Shown: piece by piece, positions 819-26,797 of the stretch | Layout of the letters: each line of letters opens with the position of its first letter | How positions within the stretch are numbered: the stretch's first letter is position 1 | Assembly: GCA_020832655.1 (NCBI GenBank) | Contig: JAFIEF010000024.1 | Coordinates: 1-45,200, forward strand | Length of the DNA stretch: 45,200 bases | Source: Paracoccaceae bacterium | GTDB lineage: Bacteria; Pseudomonadota; Alphaproteobacteria; Rhodobacterales; Rhodobacteraceae | Direction: 5' to 3' | The notes under the pieces: generated by a model | Databases searched by the model: none | What the model saw: only the letters and a program-made list of their open reading frames with translations | Told to the model about the DNA's origin: nothing | Program-made: the position numbers and the translations under genes

Positions 819-1505
819 TCAACCTGCTTTGTCGCGCAGCTCCACCGCGCTGATGAAGGCATTGCCCAGAATCGTGAACCGCCCCTCGATATGGGTTCCG
901 CGCGCAATCCCCTCGACCTCCTGCTGCATGACAGCGGTGAATCGGCTGGTATGCAGGTCGATCACCAACACGACGGCGTGGAAATCGATCACCGTGCGGC
1001 TGATCTGGTATTGCGCCTTGTAAACCGCCTCCTTTGCGCAGAATACCAGCTTGGCAAAATAGCCCCGCTGGGTCGGTCCCAGACTGGCCAGCCAGTGCCG
1101 GTCGGCCAGGGTGCAGACGCTGTCCCACAAATCAGGGCAAAGCGGGGTTGCCGGTTCCATATCCAGACCCAGCGCGCGGATCTCGGGGTCATCGCTGACC
1201 ACTGCCAGCGCGTCACGATCCGTATGCGTGATCGATCCGGTCAGACCGGCGGGCCAGATCGGCGCGCGGTCATCGCCCTGCAATACCGGGCGCGGGGGCT
1301 GGCCCAGCGCTTCCATCGCCTGACGCACGGCGGCGCGGCCTGCGCCGAATTCGCGCGCGCGGCTGGGCGCAACATGTTCGATGGCCAGCACCTCATCCCC
1401 CATCAGCCGCGGCATCGGCGCGGTCGGGTCGGCCCAGCCCAGCGCGACGCGGTCACTGAACAGGGGGCGGGCGAAGTCATGAAAGGCAAAGCGTTGCTGG
1501 GTCAT
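819..1505 (-). CDS. 4'-phosphopantetheinyl transferase (EntD/Sfp type)
   Basis: A 228-residue enzyme that would transfer the phosphopantetheine arm from coenzyme A to the conserved serine of carrier domains. Visible family motifs are an N-terminal RAAVRQA stretch, a substrate-binding PIWPAGLTGSITHT segment (residues about 82-95), the magnesium-binding LGLDME motif (residues about 112-117) and the FCAKEAVYKA signature (residues about 155-164) with its Glu and Lys. Length matches EntD-like members. It is the last gene of the operon; its ATG overlaps the stop of the NRPS-like gene by four bases (ATGA), so the two are translationally coupled. Its obvious partners are the carrier domains of the two megasynthases encoded just upstream (Ser1421 of the NRPS-like protein, Ser1779 of the PKS). 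Confidence 0.92.
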   Translation of the reverse strand: MTQQRFAFHDFARPLFSDRVALGWADPTAPMPRLMGDEVLAIEHVAPSRAREFGAGRAAVRQAMEALGQPPRPVLQGDDRAPIWPAGLTGSITHTDRDALAVVSDDPEIRALGLDMEPATPLCPDLWDSVCTLADRHWLASLGPTQRGYFAKLVFCAKEAVYKAQYQISRTVIDFHAVVLVIDLHTSRFTAVMQQEVEGIARGTHIEGRFTILGNAFISAVELRDKAG

Positions 1506-4500
1506 CTGCGGGACGTCCTTTCTGCGCGCATCGCACGGCGGCGCGCCATTGCCTGAAGCCGGTCGGGCGCGGCGTGCGCCTGGGCATGGGCGGGGTCGGC
1601 GGCAGCGGGGGCCGATTGGTCGGGCTTCGGTGCCGCCACTGCAAGCATCGTTGCGGGGCGCACCGGGCGCTGCTTCTGGTCCAGATGGCGGGCCAGATCG
1701 CCCAGCACCGGAAAGCGGAACAGATCGGTGATCGACAGCCCCGGCAGCTTCAGCCTTGCGCGCATTTCACGATGCGCCTGCACTGCCAGCAGCGAATGCC
1801 CGCCCAGATGGAAGAAATTATCCGCCAGCCCCACTTGCCCCACGCCCAGAACCTCGGCCCAGATGGTCGCAATCGCGCCTGCGGTATCGGATGCGGTATC
1901 AGATGCGGTGGCGGGCGCGTCCGGCGCTGTGTCAACGGGGGCCGCGCGCTGAATTGCGGGGGCAGGCAGCGCCTTGCGGTCGATCTTCCTGTTCGGCGTC
2001 AGCGGCATATCCGCCAGCGGCACCAGCACCGAGGGCAGCATATGCGCAGGCAGCCTTGCGGCCAGCGCCGCGCGCAGATCGCCTGCCGGACTGCCGGTGT
2101 AATAGCCCACCAGACGCTGATCACCGGGCTGATCCTCGCGCGCGATGACCACCGCATCGGTGATACCGGGCTGCGCGGCCAGCGCGGCCTCGATTTCCGG
2201 CAATTCGATGCGGTGGCCGCGGATCTTCACCTGATGATCGCTGCGCCCCAGAAAGGCCAGCCCCTCCGGCCCCATCCGCACCAGATCACCGGTGCGATAA
2301 AGCCGCCCCTTCCCGAACGGGTTCGGCACGAAGCGCTCGGTCGTCAGATCGGAGCGGTTCCAGTATCCGCGCGTGACCCCGTCGCCACCGATGAACAACT
2401 CGCCTTCCTGCCCGTCAGGCACGGGCGTCAGGCTGTCATCAAGGATATGGAAGCTGGTATTGGCGATCGGCGTGCCGATCCCCGCCACTGCCGCGCTGCC
2501 GCCCGCCGCCCCGGTCGAGGACCAGATCGTGGTTTCGGTCGGCCCATACATGTTCTGCACGGCGCGCCCGGTGATCTGCGCGATATCATGCGCCAGCTGC
2601 CCCGGCAGCGCCTCGCCCCCCAGCAGGATATTGGGCACATGCGCAAGCGCCGCACGGGCGTCATCATTCATCATCAGCATCCGCGCCATCGACGGCGTGC
2701 ATTGCAGATGCGTGACCTTGTGGCGCAGGATTTCGGCGGCGATGGAAAAATCATCCTCGGGCAGGTCCAGCCCGGCATTGGCGCGGCGCACCACCTCTGC
2801 CAGCGGATACAGCCCCTCCAGCACCTGATCGGCATGGATGCCGTAATCGATCAGGCAGGACAGTTCGGTCACGCCGATGGCTTTCAGCTGTTCGACGCGG
2901 GCCAGACAATCCTCGACCGTGCCGAACAGGCCCGACTCCTCGAAATAGCGGGTAAAGGCATAGTCCAGAATGCCCTCGACCTCATCCTCGCTTAATGTGG
3001 TCAGGTCGATATCCATCGGGTTCTTGGCACCTTCTGGCCGCTTGAAGGCCGGAAAGGCCCAGGCATATTGCTTGACCAGCCCGGCGGCGGCCAGCAGATA
3101 GGATTTCATCGGCCCGCGCGCCACCTCGCGCGCATGTTCGCGGTCGCGCGCCACAAAGGTGTGCAGCATCAGCGTAACCGTGAAATCCGCCGGGTCATGG
3201 CCCGCCTCGCGCAGCGCTTCGTGATAGATCCTGATCTTCCCGGCCACTTCATCGATTGACTGGCCCAGCAGATGGGTCAGCACATGCGCACCGATGCGGC
3301 CCGCATCGCGCCATGTCTCTGGGTTGCCGGCAATGGTCATCCAGATCGGCAATTCGGGGCTGACCGGGCGCGGCAGGGTCTGCACCGGCACCATGCCATC
3401 GCCCTTGTCGAATTCCACCGCCTCGCCGCGCCAGAGCTTGCGCAGCGTGTCGATCATGTCCAGCATCGCCTGCCGGTTGTGCGGCGGGCGGTTTTCGGGG
3501 CGAATCACGAAATCCACCGGATGCCAGCCAGAGGCAATGCCAAGCCCCGTGCGCCCATTGGTCAGGTTGTCGATCACTGCCCATTCCTCGGCAATGCGGA
3601 TCGGGTGGTGCAGGGGCGCCACGCAAGACCCTGCGCGCACCGCCAGATTTTTTGTCACCGCTGCCACCGCCGCGCCTGTGACCGACGGGTTGGGGAACGG
3701 CCCGCCAAAGGCGTGGAAATGACGTTCAGGCGTCCAGATCGCGCAGAAACCGTGATTATCGGCGAATTTCGCGCCTTCCAGCAGCAGGCGGTATTTCTGC
3801 GGCCCCTGCCCGTCATCATTGCCCCAATACATCAGGCTGAAATCCATATGCGCGTCCGACACGCGCACCGGTCCCCTGGCGACAAGGGCGCGGTCTTCAT
3901 CGCCCATCACCACCACCTTGAAGCCGCGCGCCAGCGTCCAGAACAGTTCCAGCACCGAGATATCGAAACTCAACGAGGTGACAGCCAGCCACACCCCGCC
4001 ATCCTCATGTTCGATGCGTTCATCCATGCCCGCAAAGAAATTGGCGACATTGCCATGTTCGACCATCACCCCCTTGGGCAGGCCGGTCGAACCGGATGTG
4101 TAGATCACATAGGCCAGATGGTCCGGCGTGACGGCAGTGTCGGGGTTGGTGTCGGGCTGGGCGGCCAGCCTTGTATCGGTATCAAGCTGCAGGGTGTCAG
4201 TGTCATGCGCGGGCAGGATATCCAGCAGATCATGCTGGGTCACAATCACCGGCGCGGCGGAATCGCGCAGATAATGCGCCAGCCGGTCGGGCGGGTAGCC
4301 TGGGTCCAGCGGCACATAGGCGCCGCCTGCCTTCAGAATGCCCAAAGCCCCCACCAGCAGGTCAGGGCCGCGCGCCGTGCACAGTGCCACAGGCGTATCG
4401 GGGGTGATGCCCATGCCGGTCAGCAGATGCGCCACGCGATTGGCGCGCGCATTCAGATCGGCATAGCTGATCGACTGGCCCTGAAAGCTGAGCGCAACCG

Positions 4501-6055
4501 CATCGGGGGTCCGCGCCACCTGTTCCTCGAACGCGGTATGGATGCAGTGGCGCGCATAGGGCCGGGCAGTGTCATTCATCTGCGCCAGTGTGGGCCGCGC
4601 GGCAGGCGGGGCTTTCATGGCCTCGGCAATCTGGCGGATCTGCGCGGCGGGCAGGGCGGCAGGGTCATGACGCAGACAGTTCGCGGCCAGATCCAGCAGC
4701 AGCGTCGCATCGCCCAGCTCTGCCCCATCCGTCACCGCGATATGCGGGCGCGTGATCAGCCCAAGCTGCGGATCGCGCGCGCTGATATCGCGAGCGAAGC
4801 CGGGGGCATGATGGGCAAGCTGCAACCGCGCGGCCACTGCGTCCAAAGGGTCAGCCCCTGACAGATCAATCCGCACCGGCACCCAGCCCGCAATATGGTC
4901 GGGGGCTGCGGATTGCGCCTGCACGACAGCGTCGTCACGATAGGCCAGATCAAACCGCGACAGCCCCAGCAGCGGGGCCAGCGCCTGCCCGAAACGCGCA
5001 ATCAGCGCCGCGCGCGACAAATGGTCCAGCCCGCTCAGCGGCACCGCGTCGCGCTGCGCGCTGCGCGCGGCCAGCCGCGCCGGGGCCATTTCACGCAGCG
5101 CATCGCGCCAGGCTTGATCACCCGAAGCGATGCGTGCGACTGCATCACTGAGCCCTGCATCGGGCGTGGCCGATATATCCCCGACCGTCGCCAGCGGCAG
5201 CGGGTTCAGCGGCAGCCCCTGCGGGCAACCCAGCCCCGAAAGCTGCACCGCCCCATCGGCGCAGGCAATCGTCACGCTGTCGGCATCGAGCGCCAGAACC
5301 GTGCCCGCGGCACCCCTGCCCGCGACCATGCGCGCCTGCCCGATCACCACGACCTGCCCGCCAAGATAGAGCTTCGGCGTGGTCAGCGGGTTCCAGTAGG
5401 GGCCATGCGTCAGCCCGCGCACCAGCCGCAGGAGTTCCGCAGCCGGGCGGGTGAAATCCAGATGCCCGCCCAAGCGCGGGCGGTCATCGCGGGCATGATA
5501 GCTGCGCTGGCCTGCATCCTGCGGCTGGCCATCCATCTGCCCGCCCTCTATCATTTCCAGCAGGCGCGGGAAGCTTTCGACCCCGGCGGCAAAGCATTTT
5601 GCGTTCAGGTCAAGCGCGGTGTCATCGGCAGCGATATCGAAGCCCTGTTGCAGCAGGATATCGCCGCGATCCACCCCTTGGGTGATCTTGTGCCAGGTGA
5701 TGGCATGGCGGCTTTCACCCTCGATCAATGCCCAGGCGGGCGCATTCAACCCGGCATGGCGCGGCAAGGGGCCGTCATGAAAATTCACAGCACCCGCGCG
5801 CGCCAGATCCAGCACCGCTTGCGGCAGGATACGCAGCCCGGCGATGTTGAAGATCCAGTCGATTTCCAGTCCGGCCAGCCGGTCCGCAAGCCCTTTGCCC
5901 GGTGCAATGACGCCCAGCCCTTCGGCCACCGCCCAGTCGCGGATCTGCGCATCATCCGTGACAACTGCTGAAATCCGGTGCCCGCGCGCGCGCAGCTGAT
6001 TGCCGCATTCCGCCAAAAGCGCCTGATCCCCGACAATCACACTGGAAAAAACCAT
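1502..6055 (-). CDS. NRPS-like protein: formyltransferase, adenylation domain interrupted by luciferase-like monooxygenase, PCP
   Basis: A 1,517-residue single-module synthetase. Residues 1-180 resemble methionyl-tRNA formyltransferase with the Asn70, His93 and Asp129 catalytic set in place; residues about 195-290 look like its C-terminal domain. Residues about 300-480 are a poorly conserved linker, possibly a decayed condensation domain. The adenylation domain starts near 505: core motifs A3 (YTSGSTGLPKG, 652-662) and A4 (FDISVLELFW, 697-706) are followed by an inserted FMN-dependent luciferase-like monooxygenase of the MupA/Atu3671 type (about 735-1095), then A5 (NMYGPTETTIW, 1168-1178), A7, A8 and A10 with Lys1357. 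A peptidyl carrier domain (LGGHSL, Ser1421) precedes an Ala/Pro-rich tail. No thioesterase, reductase or clear condensation domain is present, so its product must pass to another enzyme, probably the PKS of the same operon. Amino acid, N-formylation and hydroxylation chemistry are inferred from domain families; the substrate is unknown. Confidence 0.93.
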   Translation of the reverse strand: MVFSSVIVGDQALLAECGNQLRARGHRISAVVTDDAQIRDWAVAEGLGVIAPGKGLADRLAGLEIDWIFNIAGLRILPQAVLDLARAGAVNFHDGPLPRHAGLNAPAWALIEGESRHAITWHKITQGVDRGDILLQQGFDIAADDTALDLNAKCFAAGVESFPRLLEMIEGGQMDGQPQDAGQRSYHARDDRPRLGGHLDFTRPAAELLRLVRGLTHGPYWNPLTTPKLYLGGQVVVIGQARMVAGRGAAGTVLALDADSVTIACADGAVQLSGLGCPQGLPLNPLPLATVGDISATPDAGLSDAVARIASGDQAWRDALREMAPARLAARSAQRDAVPLSGLDHLSRAALIARFGQALAPLLGLSRFDLAYRDDAVVQAQSAAPDHIAGWVPVRIDLSGADPLDAVAARLQLAHHAPGFARDISARDPQLGLITRPHIAVTDGAELGDATLLLDLAANCLRHDPAALPAAQIRQIAEAMKAPPAARPTLAQMNDTARPYARHCIHTAFEEQVARTPDAVALSFQGQSISYADLNARANRVAHLLTGMGITPDTPVALCTARGPDLLVGALGILKAGGAYVPLDPGYPPDRLAHYLRDSAAPVIVTQHDLLDILPAHDTDTLQLDTDTRLAAQPDTNPDTAVTPDHLAYVIYTSGSTGLPKGVMVEHGNVANFFAGMDERIEHEDGGVWLAVTSLSFDISVLELFWTLARGFKVVVMGDEDRALVARGPVRVSDAHMDFSLMYWGNDDGQGPQKYRLLLEGAKFADNHGFCAIWTPERHFHAFGGPFPNPSVTGAAVAAVTKNLAVRAGSCVAPLHHPIRIAEEWAVIDNLTNGRTGLGIASGWHPVDFVIRPENRPPHNRQAMLDMIDTLRKLWRGEAVEFDKGDGMVPVQTLPRPVSPELPIWMTIAGNPETWRDAGRIGAHVLTHLLGQSIDEVAGKIRIYHEALREAGHDPADFTVTLMLHTFVARDREHAREVARGPMKSYLLAAAGLVKQYAWAFPAFKRPEGAKNPMDIDLTTLSEDEVEGILDYAFTRYFEESGLFGTVEDCLARVEQLKAIGVTELSCLIDYGIHADQVLEGLYPLAEVVRRANAGLDLPEDDFSIAAEILRHKVTHLQCTPSMARMLMMNDDARAALAHVPNILLGGEALPGQLAHDIAQITGRAVQNMYGPTETTIWSSTGAAGGSAAVAGIGTPIANTSFHILDDSLTPVPDGQEGELFIGGDGVTRGYWNRSDLTTERFVPNPFGKGRLYRTGDLVRMGPEGLAFLGRSDHQVKIRGHRIELPEIEAALAAQPGITDAVVIAREDQPGDQRLVGYYTGSPAGDLRAALAARLPAHMLPSVLVPLADMPLTPNRKIDRKALPAPAIQRAAPVDTAPDAPATASDTASDTAGAIATIWAEVLGVGQVGLADNFFHLGGHSLLAVQAHREMRARLKLPGLSITDLFRFPVLGDLARHLDQKQRPVRPATMLAVAAPKPDQSAPAAADPAHAQAHAAPDRLQAMARRRAMRAERTSRR

Positions 6056-6068
6056 ACCAAACCTCTGT

Positions 6069-7055
6069 TCAGGGCATGTCCTGCACCTGCTTTCCCGCCC
6101 GATTGGCCGCCGCGCCCGGCTTCAGGGCTTGCCATGTGTATCCCGCAAGATCGCGGAGAAAATATGGCGGAACCCGTTCCTCTTTGCGTTCCAGCACGCG
6201 GCGCAGCTTCCAGATCATCGCCCCGGCCAGATAGGCCAGTGTCACCCCCGTCAGATAGGCCCGCCCGCCAGCCCTGGTGAAATACCGCGCGCGCGAGGCA
6301 AACCAGTAGCCCGGCACCCGGTCCCAGCGTTTCATGCCGGTGCTGACAGAACCGATATGCATGACGCTGGCCTGCGGCAGATAGCCCCCCTGCCAGCCCG
6401 CAGCCCATGCCCGGCGGCACAGATCGGTTTCTTCAAAATACAGGAAGAAGCCCTGATCAAACAGCCCGATCTGGTCCAGCATCTGGTTGCGGAACATCAC
6501 ACTTGCGCCCGAACACCAATCCACCGCGCAGGGCTGGGCAGGGAAATCCATGCTGACCTGATGGCGCCGCAACAGGCGCGAAATCGGCGCGGTCTGCGCG
6601 GCGGCCTCGAATTCCGACAGCACTGACGGGAAGCGGAACGCCGAATGATGCGCCACGCCATCCGCGCCGCGTATCGCACTGCCCACAAACCCCATGCGCG
6701 GATGCGAAAGCAGATGATCGCGCAGCTTGGCGATGGTATCAGGGTCGGGAAAGGCATCAGGGTTCAGCAGATAGACGAAATCGGGCTTGCGCCCATCGGG
6801 CAACCCCGCGCGGATGGCGATGTTATTGCCAAAGCCGAACCCGCCATTGCGGCCAGAGGCGATGACCCGCACATCGGGCCAGTCAGCGGTTTCACCCGCC
6901 AGCAACTCGAATGAGCCGTCCTGGCTGTCATTATCGACAATGGTGATCGCGCCTTCCATCCCGCGCATGGCCTTGCGCGCGGCGGCAGCCGATTTCAGCG
7001 CCATATCGGCGCTTTTGTAATTCACGATCACGGTCAGGACAGAGGCACTCATCAT
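6069..7055 (-). CDS. Glycosyltransferase family 2 (rhamnosyltransferase-like)
   Basis: A protein of about 328 residues with a GT-A fold N-terminus: VLTVIVNYKS, then VDNDSQDGS and RNGGFGFGNN, and NPDAFPD as the likely nucleotide-sugar and metal site. The middle holds the WCSGASVMFR and FFLYFEETDLCRRA segments typical of WbbL-type rhamnosyltransferases. It should move a sugar from a nucleotide donor to a lipid-linked or secreted acceptor at the cytoplasmic face of the membrane. A moderately hydrophobic stretch near residue 260 (YLTGVTLAYLAGAMIW) may contact the membrane. The gene follows the PKS stop immediately; GTG at 7064 would overlap that stop, but ATG at 7055 (or 7052) sits better behind a GAGTGAGAG sequence. 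Position between the PKS and NRPS genes suggests it glycosylates their product or builds the glycan handled by the upstream Wzz/Wzy-like proteins. Confidence 0.88.
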   Translation of the reverse strand: MMSASVLTVIVNYKSADMALKSAAAARKAMRGMEGAITIVDNDSQDGSFELLAGETADWPDVRVIASGRNGGFGFGNNIAIRAGLPDGRKPDFVYLLNPDAFPDPDTIAKLRDHLLSHPRMGFVGSAIRGADGVAHHSAFRFPSVLSEFEAAAQTAPISRLLRRHQVSMDFPAQPCAVDWCSGASVMFRNQMLDQIGLFDQGFFLYFEETDLCRRAWAAGWQGGYLPQASVMHIGSVSTGMKRWDRVPGYWFASRARYFTRAGGRAYLTGVTLAYLAGAMIWKLRRVLERKEERVPPYFLRDLAGYTWQALKPGAAANRAGKQVQDMP

Positions 7056-7060
7056 CACTC

Positions 7061-10000
7061 TCACTCTGCGGCTTGTCTGAATTGGGGTGGCGTGGTTCGG
7101 GGCAGAAGCCCGCGCAGCTTCCCGGCCAGAACCCGCACATTGGGTTCCAGCACCATGCTGTCATGATCGCCCGGCACCTCGATCACGCGCAGATCGGGGG
7201 CAAAGCGGGTCCAGTCATTATCCGGGTAGACAAAATCGCGCTGGCGGTTGACCCATTGCCCGCCCGTGACCTTCCAGTGGCGTTCCAGCGGGGGGCGCAG
7301 CAGCACCAGATTGCCGCCCCAGGGCGCAAGCTGATACTGCCCCACCGCATGGCGAAACGCGGCTTCGATCGCGGTGTTGTGGAAGGCATGGTCTTGATCG
7401 GCGCGCGGGGCTTCGGCCTGATGGCGCTGCCACGCCTTGCGCGCGCGCCACCATTCCAGCAGATAGCGCGGGCCGTGGCGGCGCAACTCTGCCAGCTTGA
7501 TCATGACCTTGTCGGCGCGGCCAAGCACCGGGCGCTGCGGCAGGGGCGTATCCAGAAGCACCACAATCGCGACCTCTTCGCCTAGCCCTTCCAGTTGCCG
7601 CGCGATTTCATAGGCGGTGATGCCACCGCCTGAAAACCCGCCCAGCGCATAGGGGCCGTGGGGCTGGACCTGCCGCATCTCTGCGATGTAATCGGCCGCG
7701 GCTTCGACAATGCTGTCATGGGGCGCGTCATCGCCCAGCAGCCCGCGCGCCTGTAGCCCGTAAAATGGCCGCTCGCGCCCCAAAAGCAGCGCCAGATGGC
7801 GCAGATTAAGGACATTGCCGAACATCCCCGCAACCAGGAAAAACGGCGTCTCGGAGGTATCATCGCCCTGATGCATCGGCACCAGATAGCGAAAACGCGG
7901 GCGTGCGGCCTGGCGCGGCACGGCGCTGCCCCCGGCGTCAGCGTCGATCCCCGCCGCTTCGGCAATGCGCGCGCCAAGGGCGGCAATGGTCGGGGTCTGA
8001 AACAGTTCCGATATCGGAAAGCTGACCGCCCAATGCTTCCTGACCTGCGCAAACAGCCGCACCGCGATCAGCGAATGCCCGCCAAGATCGAAGAAATCAT
8101 CCTCGACCCCGATCTGGCTGATGCCCAGCAGATCCTGCCACATATGGGCAAGGGTCCGTTCAACGTCATTGCGCGGGGCGACATAATCGCCGCCCAGATC
8201 GGGGCGGTCGAATTTGGTGCTGCTGCCCTCGCGCGCAGCGTCGTGGGCGATGTGATCGACCAGCGCGGGCAGGCTGATGGAACTGACATGAAGCTGCGCC
8301 TGCGCGCTGCCCAAGGCGCGCATAAAGGCATCGGCCCCTTCCGCCGGGGTAATGCCCAGGCCCAGCATGTCGCGCAGCCGTTCTTCGGCAGGCGACAGGC
8401 CGGTCGCCGCAGCCGCAGGCGCATCAAATTCCAGCTCTGCCGCGCGGATGGGCGGCGCATCGGTGAAACTGCCGCCTTCCAGCCGCTTGATGGTGAAGCG
8501 GGTAATCTGGGCAATCACCACGCCTTCTTGCGTGGCCAGTGTCAGATCGAAGGCCGCAAAACCCGGCTCGGCATCATCGCGCAGCCGCGCATGGCTGACA
8601 ATCGCGGCGGGCAGATCGGCGAAGATTTGCAGCCCGTCATAGCTGACCGGCACCCACAGGCTGCGCGCCCCGTAACCGGGGATCAGCCGCATCGCCCAGC
8701 CGGTTGCCAGATCCATCAGCGCGGGGTGCAGCGCGTGGCCTGCGGCCAGATCACCGGTAAATTCGGCAGGCAGCGCCAGATGCGCCAGCCCTTCGCCCTG
8801 GCCCAGCGCCATGCGTTCCAGCACCCGCCAGCGCGGGCCGAAATCCAGATGCGCCTCTTGCGGGCTTTGCAGGCCGGTGCCACTGCTGACATCCGGGCAG
8901 CGCGCGTCAATCGCGGCCAGGTCAATCGGGTCTGGCCGCGCCATCACCCCCAGACACAGCCGCGCCTGCGCATTCAGAACATAGCCGCTGCGCCCCTGAC
9001 AGGTGACATCGCTGCGCAGGGCGAAATCATAGCCTTCCGCGCTGCGCGTCAGCGTGGTGCGCAACTGCCGCGCACCGCCATCGGGCACCGGCAGGGCACG
9101 GAAGAACCACATATCGCGGATCTCGAACGCGCCGTCATGGCCTTGGGCGCGCAGCGCCTGCGCGGCCATATCCAGATAGGCGGTGCCGGGCAAGATCGCC
9201 TGCCCATCCTTCGTGCGGTGCTCATCCACCACCCAGTCGGACGCATGCAAACGCTTCATCAGCCGCCGGTTGCCTGCGCGGTCAAAGCCCATCTCGTCAT
9301 AAAAGGGCTGCGCGCAGGGGGTGGCGGGGGCATCCACCCCCTGCCCGGTGCGCGCGGCAAAGGCATCGGCCGCCATGCCGGTTTCGGCCCAGATCCCCCA
9401 GTTCAGCGCCAGCACCCGTGTTTTCCCCGCCCGCCGCGACTGCGCGAAAGCGTTCAGATAGGCATTGGCGGCGACATAATCGACCTGCCCCACCGGCGCG
9501 GTGACGGTAGAGGAGGAGGAAAACAGCACCATCACCTTCAGCGTGCCATCGGGCAAAAGCGCGTCAATCACCTGCACCCCATGCAGCTTGGGCGCCAGAA
9601 CCTGTTCGATATCGGCCTCTGACTTGCCAAGGATCGGCGCATCGGCGATATGGCCCGCCGCATGGATCAGCCCATAAAGCTCGCCAAACGCTTCGCGCGC
9701 GCCGTCAAGCGCCGCCTGCATCTGGTCAATCGCGCAGACATCGGCGCAGGCGACATGCAGCTGTCCGCCCATCGCTTCCAGCCGCTGCACCGCCAATATC
9801 CGGCGCGACACCGAATCATGCGGCGGGTTTGCGGCCAGCCAGCGCGGCCAGTCGGCGCGCTCTGGCAGGGACGAACGCGCAATCAGCGTGATGCGCGCGC
9901 CATGATCGCGGATCAGCCTTTCGGCCAATGTCAGCCCGATGCCGCCAAAGCCGCCTGTGATGACCCAATGCGCGCCCCTGGGCATATCCGGCACGGCCTC

Positions 10001-13000
10001 GGGCAGCGGCGCGGGGCGGATGGTTTCGACATAACGCCGCGCCCCGCGCAGCAGCGCGGTGGTATTGCCCGGATTGGCGCATAGCTCTTCCAGCAGCGCC
10101 ACGCTCAACCCCTTTTCGCGCGGGTCAATATCCAGCGTGGCGCAGCTTAGCCCCGCAATCTCGCGCGGGGCCACGCGGGCCGGACCCTGGATCAGCGCCT
10201 TTTCGGGGTGCGCCAGCGCCTCATCGCCCAAAGCCTGCGCGCCCGATGTCACCACCACCATATGCAGCGGCAGCGCCAGATCCTCTGACTGGATCGCCTG
10301 GGCCAGATAGGTCAGCGCATAAAAGCCCTGTTCCAGATTGCGATGCAGGAAGCTGGAGCCGGCGCGGTAGTCTTCGCCCCGTGTCACCAGCCAGAAATGC
10401 GCAATGCGGCTGGGGCTGATGCCCTGCACGGTCAGATCCTGCAAAAGCCGCACATAACCATCCGCCCCGTGTTCGGGCGCCAGGCTGTAGCGGTCGGCCC
10501 CAAGCCGCGCGAAACTGTCGCCCGCGCGGACCTCTATCACCCGCTGGCCGCTGTCGCGCAGCGCCGCGATGACAGGGGCCGCAACCCCGCTTTCATCAGC
10601 AAAGATCAGCCATGTTTCGCGCAAGCTGGCCAGATCGCGCGTCACATCCAGATCGCAATCGGCATAGGCGGGCTTCCAATGCAACCTGTGGCCCCAGTCG
10701 CGCAGATCGGCCAGACGTTCCAGCGCGGGCGCATCGGGCTGCGCGCCTGCGCGCGGTTCAATGAAATAGCGCGCGCGCTGGAAGGGATAGCCGGGCAGGC
10801 GGACACGGTGGCGCGCCCCTTCGCCCCAAAGCTGCGCCCAGTCAAACTGCCCGCCCAAACCCCAGATGCGCCCCAGCACGCCGATATGATAAATGTCATC
10901 GGCGACCGGGTCATCGCGGTGGCGCAGCGCCGACAGCACTTGCTGGCCATTGACCGCCGGGTGCATCCGCGCCAGCGATGACAATGCGCGCCCCGGCCCC
11001 ATTTCCAGATAGATGCGGTTCGCACGCTGCGACAAAGTGGCGATGCAATCGGCGAAATGCACGGTGTTGCGCAGATGCTGGACCCAATAGTCAGGGTCCA
11101 TAGCCTGACTGTCGGTCAGGGGCTGGCCGCTGCGGTTCGAGATGATCGGAAGTTGCGGCGGGTGCAGCGCCAGCCCGGCCAGAAAGGCGCGGAACTGATC
11201 AAGGATCGGCTCCAGCATCGCGCTATGCGCGGCGATGTCGATGGCGATGCGGCTGGCCTCTACCCCGTCAGCACTCAGCCGCGCCTCCAAAGCGTCAAGT
11301 GCTGCTTGCGGACCGGACACCACCGTCAGTTCCGGCGCGTTCAGCGCGGCGATATCCAGCCCCTCTGCCAGATAGGGGGCAACTGCGTCGCGCGACAGCG
11401 GCACTGACAGCATGCCGCCCGGTGCCACGCTGTCAAACAGCCGCCCGCGCAGATGCACCAGATCGATGCAATCCTCAAACCCCATGACGCCTGCCAGCGC
11501 GGCAGCGGTGTTTTCGCCCATCGAATGGCCGACCAGCGCGGCAGGCTGCACGCCCCAGCCCATGAACATCTGCGCCAGCGCATATTCGGTGATCATGATC
11601 AGCGGCAATTGCACCGAAGGGCGCTTGAGCGCCTCGTCAGCCGCACCCTCCTGCCCCGGTTCGGGCAGCCACAGCGCGCGCAGATCATAATCAAGCTTCG
11701 GTTGCAGATGCGCCAGCCCGCGATCCATCCATTCGGCGAAATCGGGTTCGGTATTGTAAAGATCGCGCGCCATGCCGGCATATTGCGCGCCCCCGCCGGG
11801 GAACATGAAAACCAGATCGGGGTCATCCAGCGCCGTATGCGTAAAGACGCGGGCGGGGTCATCGGCGTCCAGCAATTCTGCCGCCTGCGCATGGCTTTCG
11901 GCCACCACCACGCGGCGCTGGGCAAATTCGCTGCGCCCTTGCTTCAGCGTATATGCGATATCGGCCAGCGGCTGGTCCGGGTTGTCGCGCAGATGTGCAG
12001 CCAGCCGCGTGCTGGCATCCCCCAGCGCTGCTTTCGATTTGGCCGAGAGTGTCAGCAGCTGAAACGGCCAGTCGCTTTCAGCCGACGGCGCGCGCGCGGG
12101 CGCTTCCTGCATCACCAGATGCGCATTGGTCCCGCCCACCCCCAGCGAATTCACACCTGCGCGCAGCGGGCCATCGGCCACCCAGTCGCTCAGGCGGTCA
12201 TTGACGACAAAGGGGCTGGCGTCGAAATCAATCGCGGGGTTCGGGGCTTCGAAGCCAAGGCTGGGCGGCAATTCGCGGTGATGCAGCGCCTGCGCCACCT
12301 TGATCAGCCCGGCCACGCCCGCGGCGGTGTCCAGATGGCCGATATTGGTCTTGACCGAGCCGATGCGGCAAAACCCGCGCTGGCCGGTGTTGAAACCCTG
12401 CGTCAGCGCCGCAATCTCGATCGGATCACCCAGATAAGTGCCGGTGCCGTGGCATTCGACGTAAGAAATGCTTTCTGCCGCAACACCCGCGACCAGATGC
12501 GCCTCTGCCACCGCCTGCGCCTGCCCTTCGACCGACGGGGCCAGATAGCCCGCCTTGGCGGCGCCGTCATTATTGATCGCGCTGCCCTTGATCACGGCGA
12601 GGATGTTGTCGCCATCGGCCAGCGCATCGGCCAGCCGCCGCAGCACCACAACGCCAGCACCCGAACCGAACACCGTGCCCTGCGCGCGATGGTCAAAGGC
12701 GTGGCATGCCCCGTCAGGGGAAAGGATCTCGTTTTCCTTGAACAGATAGCCGCGCCCCTGCGGCAATTCTATCGTCACGCCCCCCGCCAGCGCCATGTCG
12801 CATTCACCGGTCAGAAGCGACTGCACCGCGTAATGCACCGCCACCAGCGAAGTCGAGCACGCGGTCTGCACATTGACCGATGGCCCGTGCAGATCGAAGA
12901 TATGGCTGACGCGTGTGGACAGGAAATCCTTGTCATTGCCGGTATGGCGCAGCAGGAACAGGCCCACATCCTCGACCAGATCAGGGTGCGAGCACAGATT

Positions 13001-13408
13001 GACATGGAAATAGCTGCCCATGCCACAGCCCGCGAACACGCCCACCGGGCCGGGGAACCGCGCGGGCGGGTGGCCAGCATCCTCGAACGCTTCCCAGGCC
13101 ACTTCCAGAAACTGGCGGTGCTGGGGGTCCAGTATCGCGGCCTCCTTGGGCGAGAAGCCGAAGAAATCGGGATCAAACTCGGCAAAGCCGTCCAGCGTGG
13201 CGGCATATGGCACGTAATTGGGCTTGCGCAGATTGGCGGCAGGCTCGCCAGCTTCCAGCAACTCTGCCTCTGACAGGCGGCGGATGGCGCTGCGCCCGGC
13301 GCGCAGATTGTCCCAGAATTCAGTGACAGACCCCGCCCCCGGCAGATGCGCGGCCATGCCGATAATGGCAATGTCGGTGTCGGTATACTGGTCGGGCAAA
13401 TCGGTCAT
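7061..13408 (-). CDS. Type I polyketide synthase, KS-AT-KR-DH-ACP-TE
   Basis: A 2,115-residue single-module synthase. Domains in order: ketosynthase (about 10-435) with Cys184, His320 and His358; acyltransferase (about 530-835) with GHSMGE around Ser629 and the carboxylate-binding Arg654; ketoreductase (about 1145-1345) with the GGFGGIG nucleotide-binding loop and Tyr1311/Asn1315; dehydratase-like hot-dog domain (about 1385-1650) with His1397 and Asp1566; acyl carrier domain with Ser1779 in LGGHSL; and a C-terminal thioesterase with Ser1926 (GGFSGGG), Asp1953 and His2082. No enoylreductase or methyltransferase is visible. Two oddities: the dehydratase follows the ketoreductase, the reverse of the usual DH-KR order, and the acyltransferase has IAAHS where HAFH or YASH is usual, so the extender unit cannot be predicted. 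Start: ATG at 13408 gives the usual short lead into the KS; a GTG at 13423 is possible. It should extend a starter by one unit, reduce and dehydrate it, and release it through the thioesterase. Confidence 0.94.
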   Translation of the reverse strand: MTDLPDQYTDTDIAIIGMAAHLPGAGSVTEFWDNLRAGRSAIRRLSEAELLEAGEPAANLRKPNYVPYAATLDGFAEFDPDFFGFSPKEAAILDPQHRQFLEVAWEAFEDAGHPPARFPGPVGVFAGCGMGSYFHVNLCSHPDLVEDVGLFLLRHTGNDKDFLSTRVSHIFDLHGPSVNVQTACSTSLVAVHYAVQSLLTGECDMALAGGVTIELPQGRGYLFKENEILSPDGACHAFDHRAQGTVFGSGAGVVVLRRLADALADGDNILAVIKGSAINNDGAAKAGYLAPSVEGQAQAVAEAHLVAGVAAESISYVECHGTGTYLGDPIEIAALTQGFNTGQRGFCRIGSVKTNIGHLDTAAGVAGLIKVAQALHHRELPPSLGFEAPNPAIDFDASPFVVNDRLSDWVADGPLRAGVNSLGVGGTNAHLVMQEAPARAPSAESDWPFQLLTLSAKSKAALGDASTRLAAHLRDNPDQPLADIAYTLKQGRSEFAQRRVVVAESHAQAAELLDADDPARVFTHTALDDPDLVFMFPGGGAQYAGMARDLYNTEPDFAEWMDRGLAHLQPKLDYDLRALWLPEPGQEGAADEALKRPSVQLPLIMITEYALAQMFMGWGVQPAALVGHSMGENTAAALAGVMGFEDCIDLVHLRGRLFDSVAPGGMLSVPLSRDAVAPYLAEGLDIAALNAPELTVVSGPQAALDALEARLSADGVEASRIAIDIAAHSAMLEPILDQFRAFLAGLALHPPQLPIISNRSGQPLTDSQAMDPDYWVQHLRNTVHFADCIATLSQRANRIYLEMGPGRALSSLARMHPAVNGQQVLSALRHRDDPVADDIYHIGVLGRIWGLGGQFDWAQLWGEGARHRVRLPGYPFQRARYFIEPRAGAQPDAPALERLADLRDWGHRLHWKPAYADCDLDVTRDLASLRETWLIFADESGVAAPVIAALRDSGQRVIEVRAGDSFARLGADRYSLAPEHGADGYVRLLQDLTVQGISPSRIAHFWLVTRGEDYRAGSSFLHRNLEQGFYALTYLAQAIQSEDLALPLHMVVVTSGAQALGDEALAHPEKALIQGPARVAPREIAGLSCATLDIDPREKGLSVALLEELCANPGNTTALLRGARRYVETIRPAPLPEAVPDMPRGAHWVITGGFGGIGLTLAERLIRDHGARITLIARSSLPERADWPRWLAANPPHDSVSRRILAVQRLEAMGGQLHVACADVCAIDQMQAALDGAREAFGELYGLIHAAGHIADAPILGKSEADIEQVLAPKLHGVQVIDALLPDGTLKVMVLFSSSSTVTAPVGQVDYVAANAYLNAFAQSRRAGKTRVLALNWGIWAETGMAADAFAARTGQGVDAPATPCAQPFYDEMGFDRAGNRRLMKRLHASDWVVDEHRTKDGQAILPGTAYLDMAAQALRAQGHDGAFEIRDMWFFRALPVPDGGARQLRTTLTRSAEGYDFALRSDVTCQGRSGYVLNAQARLCLGVMARPDPIDLAAIDARCPDVSSGTGLQSPQEAHLDFGPRWRVLERMALGQGEGLAHLALPAEFTGDLAAGHALHPALMDLATGWAMRLIPGYGARSLWVPVSYDGLQIFADLPAAIVSHARLRDDAEPGFAAFDLTLATQEGVVIAQITRFTIKRLEGGSFTDAPPIRAAELEFDAPAAAATGLSPAEERLRDMLGLGITPAEGADAFMRALGSAQAQLHVSSISLPALVDHIAHDAAREGSSTKFDRPDLGGDYVAPRNDVERTLAHMWQDLLGISQIGVEDDFFDLGGHSLIAVRLFAQVRKHWAVSFPISELFQTPTIAALGARIAEAAGIDADAGGSAVPRQAARPRFRYLVPMHQGDDTSETPFFLVAGMFGNVLNLRHLALLLGRERPFYGLQARGLLGDDAPHDSIVEAAADYIAEMRQVQPHGPYALGGFSGGGITAYEIARQLEGLGEEVAIVVLLDTPLPQRPVLGRADKVMIKLAELRRHGPRYLLEWWRARKAWQRHQAEAPRADQDHAFHNTAIEAAFRHAVGQYQLAPWGGNLVLLRPPLERHWKVTGGQWVNRQRDFVYPDNDWTRFAPDLRVIEVPGDHDSMVLEPNVRVLAGKLRGLLPRTTPPQFRQAAE

Positions 13409-13425
13409 CTGGGAACATACCACAT

Positions 13426-14940
13426 CTACAGGAAACTATGCTTGAAACCGGGGGCGGCGCTGCGCGCGCCGGTCATCAGCCCGGCGCGGCTGGGCTGATC
13501 CCGCCAGCGCTGCAACCGCGCCTGTTGCGCGCGCCGGTGCTGCAATTCGGCATGCCCCAGCAGCGCCCCGGCAATCAGCCAGGTCAGCGGCACCATCGTG
13601 GCATTGGGCAGCAGATCGATCAGGCTGACGCCAAGGATCAGCGCCAGCACCCCGGCAGCGGGCGGGATATCGCGGTTCGCCACCAGCCGATAGCGCCACC
13701 ACAGCGCCAGAAGCGGCAGGCACAGCAGACCGAACAGGGCCAGATAGCCCAGCCAGCCCCATTGCCCGATGGTGATGATCCACATCCCGTCGCTGACCGA
13801 CAGCACCTCGCCGGTAACGGGGTCAAAAATCTGGTTGCGCCCCCATCCGCCCCAACCGAAAAACGGCTTTTCACTGGCGCGTTCCAGCAGCATGTCTTCA
13901 TTGTCGAACCGGAATTCCAGCGACTGCGCGCGCTCCGGGCTGCGCGCGCGCACAAAGCTGACAAGCTGCTCGGTCGGGATCAGCCCGCCGCCGCGCAGCA
14001 GCGGATAGCTTATCGCCACCCCGGCCATCGCGGCGGCAAGGCGAAACTGCATCCGCGGCGCGAACAGCAACACGCTTGCACCAGCCACCGCCATCAGCAC
14101 AAGCGGCCCCACGCTGCGGGTCAGCAGCACCATGCCAAACAGCCAGAACGCGATCAGCAGCGCGCGCGGGCGCTTATCAGGCGCGGCCTGCAAGACGAAA
14201 TGCAACGCCGCAGTGGCGGTCATGACCACGAACAGCGCCAGCCACAACCCATGCGGCATGAACACGATGGGCCGGAACCCGCCCTGCCGGATCATCTGGA
14301 TGAAATCATGCTGGAAGAAGCCATAGATCCAGGTGTGCAATTGCGGGCTGAAGCGCACCTCGATCAGGATTGGCACGGAATAGATCAGCCCGGCAATGAC
14401 CAGCGCGCGCAGCAATTCGCTCAGCGCGGCCTCGGTCGCCAGAATATGGCGCGCCAGAAAGAAGGGCAGGATCAGGATCAATTGCTGCGCCAGCGCAGAA
14501 AACGCATCATAAAGCCGCATTCCCGGCACGGAATCGGGCACTGCTGCGCCATGATCGATGCTGGATAGCGGGAATTGCTGCACGCTCAGCTGACCACTGG
14601 TCTGGATCGCGAAGGTGATCGGTTCCAGATTGTGGAACACCGAAATCACCGGCGCGGCGATCAGCATCAGCACCAGCGCCTTGCCCACAAGCCCGACAGG
14701 CAGCAGCGCGGGGCGCAGCTTCAGCACCGCGATGCAGATGAAGGCGGCGGTCAGATTGGGGATCGAGGCCTTGTCCAGCGGCGGGATCATCGGCAGGTTG
14801 AACTCTGTCAGTTCCGGCAACACCATATAGCCGCCCAGAATCGCCCAGATGAAGGCGCGCTCGACCGGCATCTTGCGAAACATCACCCAGATCGCCAACG
14901 GCCAGATCAGCAGCGCGATATAGGCTATGGGGTTGGGCAT
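13426..14940 (-). CDS. Polytopic membrane protein, O-antigen ligase/polymerase (Wzy/WaaL-like)
   Basis: A 504-residue integral membrane protein with about ten to twelve hydrophobic segments, for example residues about 5-20, 85-100, 140-160, 170-190, 225-250, 260-290, 395-420 and 440-470. A long extracytoplasmic loop lies between about residues 310 and 385 and contains EFRFDNEDMLLERASEKPFFGWG; the FGWG-type segment after a large loop is typical of the Wzy_C/O-antigen ligase family, whose members polymerise or transfer undecaprenyl-linked glycans in the periplasm. ATG at 14940 is preferred to an upstream in-frame codon because AAGGAAGGGG lies just upstream. It begins 19 bases after the Wzz gene and ends directly before the PKS, so all three are in one transcription unit. 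Exact acceptor is unknown. Confidence 0.8.
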   Translation of the reverse strand: MPNPIAYIALLIWPLAIWVMFRKMPVERAFIWAILGGYMVLPELTEFNLPMIPPLDKASIPNLTAAFICIAVLKLRPALLPVGLVGKALVLMLIAAPVISVFHNLEPITFAIQTSGQLSVQQFPLSSIDHGAAVPDSVPGMRLYDAFSALAQQLILILPFFLARHILATEAALSELLRALVIAGLIYSVPILIEVRFSPQLHTWIYGFFQHDFIQMIRQGGFRPIVFMPHGLWLALFVVMTATAALHFVLQAAPDKRPRALLIAFWLFGMVLLTRSVGPLVLMAVAGASVLLFAPRMQFRLAAAMAGVAISYPLLRGGGLIPTEQLVSFVRARSPERAQSLEFRFDNEDMLLERASEKPFFGWGGWGRNQIFDPVTGEVLSVSDGMWIITIGQWGWLGYLALFGLLCLPLLALWWRYRLVANRDIPPAAGVLALILGVSLIDLLPNATMVPLTWLIAGALLGHAELQHRRAQQARLQRWRDQPSRAGLMTGARSAAPGFKHSFL

Positions 14941-14959
14941 GGCGCGTCCCCTTCCTTGG

Positions 14960-16246
14960 CTAGGATCCGGTCCAGGTGATCGCGATCGCCAGAACCCCCA
15001 GCACGAACAACCCAAGCCCGGCCAGCCGCGCCACCATGACCTTGCGCCGTTCAGACGGCAGTACCAGCGCGGGCAGTTCCATCACCGGGCGCAACCCTGT
15101 CTCGCGTTCGATCTGCCCGGCAGAGCGCAGCGCCGGACGCAAAAGCTCATAGGCGAAACCCGCAACCAGCGCCAGCAGGCCAGAAGCGACAATGCCCATC
15201 ATCGCCGTGGCCCTGCGACTGCGCGAAACCGGGTAATCCTCTGGCGCTGCCGGTTCGACCAGTTCAAAGGCAGCGATCTGCTGACCTGTTTCCAGCCGCA
15301 AGGTGTCGCGCGCGCGGTTGATCTGCTCCCTCAATTCGCTCTGGGTCTCGCGCAGCCTTTCCTCGCGCTGGGTAAACAAGGCCCGCTCGCGCTCGATACC
15401 CGCCAGCCGCATGAAGAACGGCTCCAGCTCGGTGCGGCGCGCGCGCAGGCGCTGCAACTCTGCCTCGCGCGCACCCAGCTCTTCGCGAAGCTGGGTCAGG
15501 CGGCGCTGCGTGCTGCCCTGACGCAGCAGGGTTTCCAGCTCGGCGCTCAGCGTCGCGACATCGCCTTCGGCGGCTTGAATCGCCGCGGTCAACTGGGTCA
15601 ACTCGCTTCGGCGCATTTCGACATTGAAGGGAAGTGCCTCTGGGTGCTCGGCGTCAAAACTGCGCGCCTCTTGCTGAACATTGGCGATATCGGCCTCGAC
15701 CTGCGCCAGCCGCTCCTGCAGCACATTCAGGGTTTCACGCACGCGCGCCTCGCGCCCGGCGCCGGTTTCAACAAGGATCATCTCTGCCAGATCATTGGCG
15801 ATGGCCGCAGCCTTTTCATTGCTGTCGGCGCGCGCCTGCACCACGATCGAGGCCAGCATCCCGTCGCGCACATGACCGACGGTCACCGCCTCCTGGCTGA
15901 ACAGATTGATCGACCGGCGTGTCAGATCAACCCGCATCTGCGGGGTTTCTTTCGGGAACAGATCATATTTCTGTGCCAGCGCCAGCATGTTTTCGCGCGT
16001 GGTCAGGCGCTGCTCAACCAGTTGCAGCAAGCGGACCGGCGAAACCTGCGCCCCCGCGCCGGTTGCGAAATCCTCGGCCACGGTGTTCAGCCGAGCCGAC
16101 AGCACGGCATGCGACTGATAGGCCGGGGTTTGCAGCACCGCCAACCCCAGACTTGCCAGAACGCCCAGCCCGAACACCGCCGCAACCAGATCCTTGCGCC
16201 GTCGCAACATCGCGATCAGTTCGGCCACTGTCTGGATCGGCCCCAT
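14960..16246 (-). CDS. Wzz/GumC-type polysaccharide chain-length and export protein
   Basis: A 428-residue inner-membrane protein. An N-terminal cytoplasmic stretch and transmembrane segment (residues about 20-40) are followed by a periplasmic region that includes a long coiled coil (about 170-330, rich in Glu, Arg and Gln with repeated LREEL/EAELQRLRARR patterns), then a second transmembrane segment (about 342-362) and a third short hydrophobic helix at the extreme C-terminus. This is the layout of polysaccharide co-polymerases, which set chain length and connect the inner membrane to the export channel. It lacks a fused kinase domain; the separate kinase-like protein encoded one base upstream would be its partner. 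Together with the Wzy-like protein it shows that the operon makes or exports a glycan or glycoconjugate. Confidence 0.85.
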   Translation of the reverse strand: MGPIQTVAELIAMLRRRKDLVAAVFGLGVLASLGLAVLQTPAYQSHAVLSARLNTVAEDFATGAGAQVSPVRLLQLVEQRLTTRENMLALAQKYDLFPKETPQMRVDLTRRSINLFSQEAVTVGHVRDGMLASIVVQARADSNEKAAAIANDLAEMILVETGAGREARVRETLNVLQERLAQVEADIANVQQEARSFDAEHPEALPFNVEMRRSELTQLTAAIQAAEGDVATLSAELETLLRQGSTQRRLTQLREELGAREAELQRLRARRTELEPFFMRLAGIERERALFTQREERLRETQSELREQINRARDTLRLETGQQIAAFELVEPAAPEDYPVSRSRRATAMMGIVASGLLALVAGFAYELLRPALRSAGQIERETGLRPVMELPALVLPSERRKVMVARLAGLGLFVLGVLAIAITWTGS

Positions 16247-16247
16247 G

Positions 16248-17138
16248 CTAGCGCCCCCCTGTCGCAGAACTGCTGTGGTTCATGACCACGCCCAGAAACT
16301 CTGTCTGATCGGCAAGGTTGCGTTCGCAGGCGGCGATATCTTCGGCACGGGTCTTGCGCGCATCGACCACCAGCAGCACCGCATCCAGCGCGGGCAACAG
16401 GTTCAGCGCCGCATCACCGGCATCCAGCAGGGGTGGCATGTCACATATCACGATATCGGGGGCCAGAAAATCGGTGATATCGGCGATCATCTCTTCGAAA
16501 ACCGCGGCAGAGACCGAATTGTCATCCGCCTGGGCATTCAGCCCCAGCGCCAGATTCGGGCCAGCCAGCTGCAAATGCGATTCAACCGGCATATCGCCTT
16601 CGATCATTGGCATGATGGGCCCCGCTGGCGCAGCCTCGAAAAACCCGTGCAGGGCAGGCGCGGCCAAGTGCATGTCCAGCCCGACCACGCGCAATTCCTG
16701 CCGCCGCCCGAAACTGGCCAGCAGTCCGGCTGACGAAAAACTCGCCCCCGCGCCGCGTGCCGGGGCGGTAATACCAAGGCTGCGCAAATTGCGTTTCTGA
16801 AAGGTCGCCTCCAGCTGCGCGCGCAGCACATCGAAGCGCTTGGCCAGATCGGGCGCGCGGCCCAGCGCGTTGAAGTCGCGCTGCCGCGCCCAGGGCGCGG
16901 GATCCGCGCTGATCGGGTCCAGATTGGCCCAGGCGGCATCGATGGCGGGGTCGTTGCGCCGGGCAACGGCCCGCGACGCGCTGCCCGAACGCAGCGATGG
17001 CCCGCCGCTGAGCGCCAGCCGCCGCCCGCCGGACGGCACCAGCGCAGGCAGCGACCCGGAACCGGAACGCGCCGAGGGCTGCCCCTTCTGCTGCAAAAGC
17101 TGTTCCAGCCGCCTTGTGTCAACCATCCATGCACCCAT
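16248..17138 (-). CDS. BY-kinase-like (CpsD/CapB family) ATPase with degenerate Walker A
   Basis: A protein of about 296 residues, first gene of the biosynthetic operon. The C-terminal half resembles the P-loop kinase partner of Wzz proteins: a Walker A' strand (VVGLDMHLAAPALHGFF) and a Walker B strand (DIVICDMPP) followed by DAVLLVVDARKT are clear. Where the P-loop should read GxGKS/T, the sequence is PARGAGASFSSA, with no lysine, so ATP hydrolysis and tyrosine phosphorylation are doubtful. No tyrosine cluster is present at the C-terminus. The N-terminal 110 residues are low-complexity, rich in Ser, Gly, Arg and Ala. Start is uncertain: GTG 17153, ATG 17138 or ATG 17126, none with a strong ribosome-binding site; 17138 was chosen. 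It probably acts as a structural or regulatory subunit of the Wzz protein rather than a working kinase. Confidence 0.75.
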   Translation of the reverse strand: MGAWMVDTRRLEQLLQQKGQPSARSGSGSLPALVPSGGRRLALSGGPSLRSGSASRAVARRNDPAIDAAWANLDPISADPAPWARQRDFNALGRAPDLAKRFDVLRAQLEATFQKRNLRSLGITAPARGAGASFSSAGLLASFGRRQELRVVGLDMHLAAPALHGFFEAAPAGPIMPMIEGDMPVESHLQLAGPNLALGLNAQADDNSVSAAVFEEMIADITDFLAPDIVICDMPPLLDAGDAALNLLPALDAVLLVVDARKTRAEDIAACERNLADQTEFLGVVMNHSSSATGGR

Positions 17139-17280
17139 TACCGAAACGGTCACGAAACCGGCATTGTTTCCGATTTCGCCAATTTAATCGCTTATTGTCC
17201 GGTTTGACGACAGAAATAAGGCGATTTGGGGGCGGTTTCCGGTAACGATTGCATGTTGCCGCACCACATGGCCAAAAGGG

Positions 17281-17496: not shown

Positions 17497-17511
17497 GGCG
17501 TCACCTCTTGC

Positions 17512-19116: not shown

Positions 19117-19204
19117 CGGCAGTCTTCCCCCCGGCATGTCGTTTGCCGCCCAATCAACCCGGACCGGGCAGGCACGGCAATGATTCAGGTCAAAGCGCGG
19201 GCAT

Positions 19205-20155: not shown

Positions 20156-20198
20156 GTGTCTTTCCTTCCGGTGTTGCGCCGCGGGGCCGGTCGTGGGT

Positions 20199-20230: not shown

Positions 20231-20231
20231 A

Positions 20232-21482: not shown

Positions 21483-21521
21483 GGGGCTCTCCTGCTTGTG
21501 TTGGTGCGGCGGGGCTGGGGC

Positions 21522-26694: not shown

Positions 26695-26797
26695 CGGCAA
26701 AATACATTTTCGTTTCTGCCTTTCTGTCATTTTGCAAAGGCGCGCAAGATGCTCTTAATGGGTTGCTATCACCTTGTTTCATGAAAGGCCGATAGCA

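Follow-up and report, generated by a model that had tools for sequence, protein, structure and literature searches.

What do a non-ribosomal peptide synthetase (NRPS) and a polyketide synthase (PKS) contribute to an operon whose other genes appear to assemble an exopolysaccharide (EPS)? The question is raised by the stretch of DNA analysed here (hereafter the window), which covers 45.2 kb from the start of contig C76 in the 3.24-Mb genome of a Paracoccaceae bacterium. Its seven-gene operon encodes, from the upstream end, a kinase-like protein, a Wzz-type chain-length determinant, a Wzy/WaaL-type membrane protein, a PKS, a family-2 glycosyltransferase (GT2), an NRPS and a 4'-phosphopantetheinyl transferase (PPT). 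We find good support for a partnership between the PKS/NRPS and EPS machinery, and we consider it probable that the product of the NRPS-PKS pair is a small acyl group, derived from glycine, that serves a Wzx/Wzy-type EPS.

Conservation of the NRPS-PKS pair with EPS genes

A first-pass annotation of the window had described seven minus-strand open reading frames (ORFs) in this order, packed almost without gaps and with short overlaps. All seven are present, spanning positions 17153 to 819, and the packing was confirmed, with gaps of 1–19 nt and two 4-nt overlaps. The kinase-like and Wzz genes lie 1 nt apart, the Wzz and Wzy genes 19 nt apart if the ATG at 14940 is the Wzy start, and the Wzy and PKS genes either 2 nt or 17 nt apart, depending on whether the PKS starts at the GTG at 13423 or the ATG at 13408. 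The PKS and GT2 genes overlap by 4 nt (GTGA), 13 nt separate GT2 from the NRPS, and the NRPS and PPT genes overlap by 4 nt (ATGA). We infer from the sequence that the seven genes are co-transcribed.

A scan of genome contigs gave 77 loci, kept from the best 80 matches. The seven-gene order, which the first-pass annotation had proposed to seek in other genomes, recurs on one strand in nine of them (L011, L012, L013, L015, L016, L017, L018, L027 and L031), all from Natronohydrobacter, Roseibaca, Roseinatronobacter and their relatives; among the other 68 are different gene orders, shortened contigs and more distant NRPSs. In an NRPS tree that took in 40 of 49 alignment rows, the hosts of the nine loci and the window fall into one 13-row group (SH-aLRT branch support 100). 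Many wider roseobacter loci keep Wzy-PKS-GT-NRPS-PPT, with Wzx, extra glycosyltransferases, Wzz and the kinase-like gene farther along, the last two matching at about 27–37% identity. Among the 77 loci, a Wzy, Wzx, PHPT, Wzz, Wza or CpsD label (hereafter machinery label) was found in 40 of the 54 closest (L011–L064) and in none of the 23 distant NRPS loci (L065–L087), a comparison between loci of differing lengths. Overlapping weaker labels were dropped, so that GT2 and PPT are undercounted there.

The same partnership is visible across 390 genomes of the window's order, which its named relatives indicate to be Rhodobacterales, each genome being at least 90% complete. The N-terminus of the NRPS was matched (E ≤1e-40) in 159 genomes and 64 of 139 genera; one match per genome is listed from at most four scored candidates, and this single match may be an undercount. 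For 40 of the 64 positive genera we then took a single genome each (the first genera in table order and the first matching genome of each; the window's genus and g88 were excluded) and searched 20 kb around the NRPS (18.9 kb in one case) by tblastn, excluding hits that covered less than 35% of the reference except for PKS and NRPS. The PKS was present in 40 of 40 stretches, a GT2 gene between PKS and NRPS in 39, PPT in 36 and at least one machinery label in 36. In 20 control stretches, placed by hand elsewhere on the same contigs of 20 of these genomes, there were no machinery labels and no glycosyltransferases, with three NRPS labels and one each for PKS, PPT and sugar-nucleotide genes.

The Wzy family of the operon occurs in 199 of the 390 genomes: in 158 of the 159 with the NRPS (G318 being the sole exception) and in 41 of the 231 without it, counts that are uncorrected for shared ancestry. 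Since 41 of the 199 Wzy-bearing genomes have no NRPS, the association is one-sided, the NRPS nearly always coming with Wzy and not vice versa. Pairwise distances, likewise uncorrected, correlate at 0.95 for PKS and NRPS, 0.94 for PKS and GT2 and 0.87 for PKS and Wzy.

Predicted chemistry of the pair

The NRPS gene (1502..6055, minus strand) encodes what looks like an initiation module. A formyltransferase (FT; PF00551/PF02911, residues about 1–290) is followed by a linker of about 200 residues (about 300–480) and an AMP-binding adenylation (A) domain (PF00501, residues 509–722), which is interrupted by a MupA-type luciferase-like (LLM) monooxygenase (PF00296, residues 748–1063) and resumes at about residue 1103, and finally by a peptidyl carrier protein (PCP; PF00550). 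The protein matches TIGR04020 with 474 bits against a cut-off of 244. No condensation domain (PF00668) was matched at E 0.001, and there is no thioesterase (TE) among its Pfam domains, the TE of the pair sitting on the PKS. An AlphaFold model of residues 1–480, with a mean predicted local distance difference test (pLDDT) score of 93.6, has the Fmt/ArnA fold; in the PDB it matches methionyl-tRNA formyltransferases and ArnA best, over alignments of about 300–320 columns. A PDB sequence search with residues about 296–505 gave no match for the linker, which we read as possibly C-lobe-like. Across orthologue rows, from which sequences shorter than 70% of the window protein or below set bit scores were excluded, N91 and H93 are kept in 48 of 48 and D129 in 47 of 48; we take these Asn, His and Asp residues to be the catalytic positions of the formyltransferase.

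The specificity code of the A domain reads DILQLGMIWK in the window, and the pattern DILQ[L/M/V]G[M/L]IWK holds in 48 of 49 rows including the window, the 49th differing only by the lack of the last letter. Because this code resembles DILQLGLIWK, the glycine code given for kalimantacin Bat2 in the available extract of PMC4831472, the A domain is predicted to activate glycine. In the PDB, the closest match to the NRPS by sequence is LgrA, the linear gramicidin synthetase, whose F-A-PCP initiation module also joins a formyltransferase to A and PCP domains; in contrast to LgrA, the window NRPS is glycine-coded, has a monooxygenase-split A domain and the FT–A linker of about 200 residues, and has a PKS partner in an EPS operon. 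A second likeness is to the myxothiazol and melithiazol modules (presumably those named MtaG and MelG), which are late modules ending in TE release, whereas the window NRPS comes first, carries a formyltransferase and has no TE of its own. According to PMC11342130, their glycine-recruiting A domains hold internal monooxygenase domains; hydroxylation at the alpha carbon is followed by loss of the amine, which leaves glyoxylate on the carrier. The TIGR04020 match of the window NRPS is part of this likeness.

The PKS (7061..13423, minus strand) is a single-module type I enzyme whose Pfam domains are arranged as ketosynthase (KS), acyltransferase (AT), ketoreductase (KR), dehydratase (DH), acyl carrier protein (ACP) and TE. 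No enoylreductase is among them, and the active-site residues, which we assume to be the catalytic ones, are intact in every covering row (40–42 rows). The GT2 gene (6069..7064, minus strand; PF13641, 48 bits; PF00535, 34 bits) encodes acidic motifs that are mostly conserved across 45 rows, and the operon closes with the PPT gene (819..1505, minus strand; PF17837, 81.6 bits; PF01648, 44 bits). PPT, NRPS, GT2 and PKS all score above the Pfam cut-offs.

A proposed route to a decorated EPS

PPTs activate carrier domains, and in the pathway that we favour this would be the first step. The NRPS would then load glycine and formylate and oxidise it on the carrier, using the FT, the glycine-coded A domain and the internal FMN monooxygenase. 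Since the NRPS has no condensation domain, its product would pass to the PKS ketosynthase and be extended with malonate, in one round if the PKS is non-iterative, after which KR and DH would reduce and dehydrate the chain and the TE would release or transfer it. The acyl group could be placed on a repeat-unit sugar, with GT2 aiding assembly, or on the polymer, and candidates for the transfer are the TE itself and an unlinked SGNH-like protein described below. Wzx would flip the unit, Wzy would polymerise it, and Wzz together with a pseudo-kinase would set the chain length. Formylation, oxidation, a single PKS extension and TE release are predicted from the domain content, while the exact acyl product, its attachment point and the order of extension, attachment, flipping and polymerisation are guesses.

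The first-pass annotation had left two readings of the product side by side. Of these, an acyl or aminoacyl decoration of a polysaccharide fits better, because 41 of the 199 genomes with the Wzy family lack the NRPS, as for an accessory decoration; the other reading, glycosylation of a polyketide-peptide unit before its polymerisation, fits less well. Carrier-based acylation of surface polysaccharide is a known kind of process, in which the NRPS-PKS pair would be new as the source of the acyl group. Dlt, AlgX-type and O-antigen acylation systems move acyl or aminoacyl groups onto a surface polymer. The proposed system differs in that the NRPS-PKS pair would build the group and the window operon holds no such transferase, although one planctomycete locus (L056) has an AlgX-like and a weakly DltB-like gene beside its copy of the pair.

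If this proposal is correct, a gene pair that 159 of the 390 sampled genomes of the order carry, and that is filed under secondary metabolism, would serve the making of a surface polymer, which could explain why the genome papers, in the portions available, name no product for it. NRPS-PKS chemistry would join the known routes of polysaccharide acylation, and the modification would concern the matrix or an adhesin of common marine bacteria.

EPS genes elsewhere in the genome and an SGNH-like protein

It had also been suggested that Wzz and Wzy stand in for an exporter. This seems less likely, as relatives have Wzx, Wzz and sugar transferases nearby and the window's genome has the corresponding genes outside the operon: a Wzx on contig C66 (PF13440 match; 42% identity with Wzx from a roseobacter locus) and, on other contigs, three PF02397 initiating sugar transferases and two Poly_export (Wza-type) genes.

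In the middle of contig C20 lies a satellite run that encodes a WecG-type protein, a 329-aa SGNH-like protein, a 573-aa protein without known family and a GT2. Loci of the Ruegeria type carry homologues of both the SGNH-like and the 573-aa protein downstream of PPT, with GT2 coming next, and have a WecG-type gene adjacent to Wzy. Neither the 329-aa protein nor its Ruegeria homologue has a Pfam or NCBIfam match, and searching the PDB with the Ruegeria sequence yielded only a chance-level hit; the label 'SGNH-like' is our assumption, made by eye from its GHSL and DxxH motifs. The protein is present in 99 of the 159 genomes with the NRPS and in one of the 231 without it (G203, where the gene lies at a contig end). 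In 40 hand-picked genomes it was within 12 kb of the NRPS in 29, farther away on the same contig in five and on another contig in six. Among five sampled genomes of the window's genus, four have the NRPS, Wzy and the SGNH-like protein, the last on a different contig from the NRPS, and the fifth (G320) has none of the three. This co-occurrence and the pattern within the genus are the strongest indication of a link between the SGNH-like protein and the NRPS-PKS pathway, and any activity assigned to the protein is a guess.

Members of the family include L033:15305-16252 and G000:C20:31584-32570 (= L177:9585-10574). The neighbouring 845-aa Ruegeria protein (L033:16249-18786) has no family match; its first portion corresponds to the SGNH-like gene in the window's genome and its last to the separate 573-aa gene, the matching region being L177:10571-12292.

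Similar pairs in other lineages

Similar pairs occur in polysaccharide loci of Hyphomicrobiales, Myxococcota, Planctomycetota and Deinococcota. The pair adjoins O-antigen ligase, polysaccharide export, flippase and glycosyltransferase genes in Aminobacter, and flippase, WecG-type, sugar-transferase and glycosyltransferase genes in Shinella; unannotated records of Neorhizobium, Rhizobium and Shinella have a similar setting by reference match. A more distant pair lies within a capsule-type locus of Deinococcus actinosclerus. In a Myxococcota contig PKS and NRPS flank two genes, one for a PF02397 sugar transferase and one of the Poly_export (Wza) type, a Sandaracinus contig has a sugar transferase at the locus, and the planctomycete locus L056 has a Poly_export gene directly after the PKS and AlgX-like, weakly DltB-like, ACP and acyl-ligase genes upstream.

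It is conceivable, and we put it forward tentatively, that these loci represent a cross-phylum class of EPS decorated by dedicated NRPS-PKS pairs, which place a short acyl unit on the repeat units and possibly serve to cross-link or glue the matrix. Formylated and alpha-oxidised glycine would give an N-formyl-alpha-hydroxyglycyl starter or, via formamide loss, a glyoxylyl starter, and one malonate extension would lead to a short enamide or a four-carbon aldehyde acid. A side observation in a Paracoccus marcusii polysaccharide locus is an extra adenylation-domain protein of 1292 aa (L091:653-4531) beside WecG and glycosyltransferase genes.

Weighing the evidence and alternative explanations

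Several observations weigh against a role of the pair in EPS decoration. Two of the polysaccharide assignments fall under their family cut-offs: the Wzy/WaaL-type polymerase or ligase (13426..14940, minus strand; ORF open to 15015) matches PF04932 with 22.9 bits (cut-off 31.7), and the putative Wzz/XrtA-type chain-length determinant (14960..16246, minus strand) matches TIGR03007 with 54 bits (cut-off 279) and PF02706 with 21.6 bits (cut-off 25.5). The seven genes encode no separate acyltransferase. Among the closest loci from the best 80, 14 of 54 are without a machinery label, many of them on short contigs (one of the 14, L021, does show Wzz and Wzy in the gene-order comparison), and the label is missing from the 20-kb stretches of four of the 40 genera, yet the genomes of these four hold the Wzy family. 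No machinery label was found within 20 kb in Aliiroseovarius (L092), where annotated glycosyltransferases lie 15–20 kb off and xrtD lies on the opposite side, or on the 12.7-kb contig of a Gemmatimonadota locus (L064), and a Methylobacterium locus (L098) carries sugar-nucleotide and PKS labels only. The planctomycete set of ACP, ligase and acyl-CoA dehydrogenase genes may instead be part of a lipid pathway, the best model for the ACP being an ornithine-lipid ACP. Lastly, the co-occurrence counts ignore shared ancestry.

As for the two low-scoring proteins, an AlphaFold model of the Wzy protein (pLDDT 82) has the WaaL O-antigen ligase 7tpg as its top PDB match (E 8.7e-4, probability 1.00), followed by FtsW (E 0.48), so that the model indicates a Wzy/WaaL fold. 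Wzz has hydrophobic segments close to both termini and homologues in polysaccharide loci. The kinase-like gene (16248..17153, minus strand; alternative start ATG 17138) encodes a BY-kinase (CpsD/CapB)-like pseudo-ATPase with matches to TIGR03018 (41 bits) and TIGR01007 (40 bits), both under cut-off. In the window protein and 32 homologues the Walker A lysine, which we take to be a hallmark of bacterial tyrosine kinases (CpsD and the Wzc C-domain), is replaced by A, T or N in 33 of 33 rows, and the Walker A' and B aspartates are conserved in all 33. The protein is thus probably not a working kinase. A conserved family of CpsD-like pseudo-kinases without the Walker A lysine adjoins Wzz or lies near it.

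An alternative that we regard as rather unlikely is that the PKS/NRPS product is a free small molecule, such as a signal, siderophore or antibiotic, perhaps glycosylated by GT2, and that the link with EPS is one of co-regulation, for example in biofilms. The FT-A-PCP, PKS and TE arrangement is an ordinary natural-product layout, and genome papers, in the extracts available, class such genes as secondary metabolism (PMC4062626, PMC8273931, PMC10221251): the PKS Inhi_1972 and NRPS Inhi_1974 of Phaeobacter inhibens (PMC4062626), Daep_00048 and Daep_00050 of P. daeponensis (PMC3910554), a 'T1PKS-NRPS-like hybrid' cluster in Sulfitobacter (PMC10221251), T1PKS/NRPS genes in Tritonibacter (PMC11225332) and a hybrid cluster on plasmid pCP157_02 of Paracoccus marcusii CP157 (PMC8273931), the plasmid on which our locus L095 lies. 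Judged by layout or plasmid rather than by sequence, these are likely to be the same genes as the window pair. The extracts of these papers do not tie the genes to EPS, and among the titles and abstract openings of the open-access papers searched none links this pair to EPS. Against a free molecule stand the lack of any recognised exporter, regulator or resistance gene among the seven, the fact that all but one of the 159 genomes with the NRPS have the Wzy family, and the Wza-type, sugar-transferase or flippase genes beside similar pairs in other phyla and orders.

Less probable still is a role of the PKS/NRPS in making a lipid-like polysaccharide anchor or primer, in what we take to be the fashion of RkpA and WcbR. 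A TE-bearing PKS could be iterative, but a glycine-starting NRPS, an FMN oxygenase and the absence of an enoylreductase from the Pfam domains of the PKS suit a short functionalised unit better than a saturated lipid, and loci of the Wzy type are not known to require an anchor of this kind. RkpA and WcbR belong to rhizobial and Burkholderia capsular loci, which presumably use another export type than the window operon. What they may share with the window is a type I PKS gene within a polysaccharide cluster: in the extract of PMC3908369, wcbR/rkpA type I PKS genes sit in capsule clusters and no NRPS partner is mentioned.

A supply of EPS anchors for exosortase-sorted proteins (the XrtD/VPLPA-CTERM system) is very improbable. 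L088, L089 and L092 have annotated XrtD or VPLPA-CTERM genes close to the locus, but a TIGR04152 search, which finds matches in the L089 record as a positive control, gave none in the window's genome; other exosortase types were not searched for. The weakest explanation, two unrelated gene sets that a chance event or a recent insertion placed together in this strain, is scarcely credible; nothing in its favour emerged, and it was rejected in view of the nine same-order loci from the best 80, the machinery in 36 of 40 stretches against none of 20 controls and the co-occurrence profile of 158 in 159, all of which uphold the linkage proposed in the first-pass annotation.

Genomic surroundings

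The contig end at position 1 leaves 818 bases visible downstream of the PPT gene, and a simple scan from the PPT stop to position 500 found no terminator-like site. Upstream of the operon, the intergenic stretch at 17154..17280 (no strand assigned) is a candidate promoter region; a simple scan of 16900–17700 found no sigma-70-like promoter. A short ORF follows, and then genes unrelated to the operon, among which homogentisate dioxygenase, fumarylacetoacetase, a metallo-beta-lactamase-fold hydrolase and an FAD hydroxylase are clustered on the minus strand (17512-22883). Farther along, a tyrosine-integrase gene (24779-26134, plus strand) and a tRNA-Gly (tcc) gene (33327-33400, minus strand) bound a region (24779-33400) of partly lower GC content, about 0.55–0.60, which looks like an integrated element.

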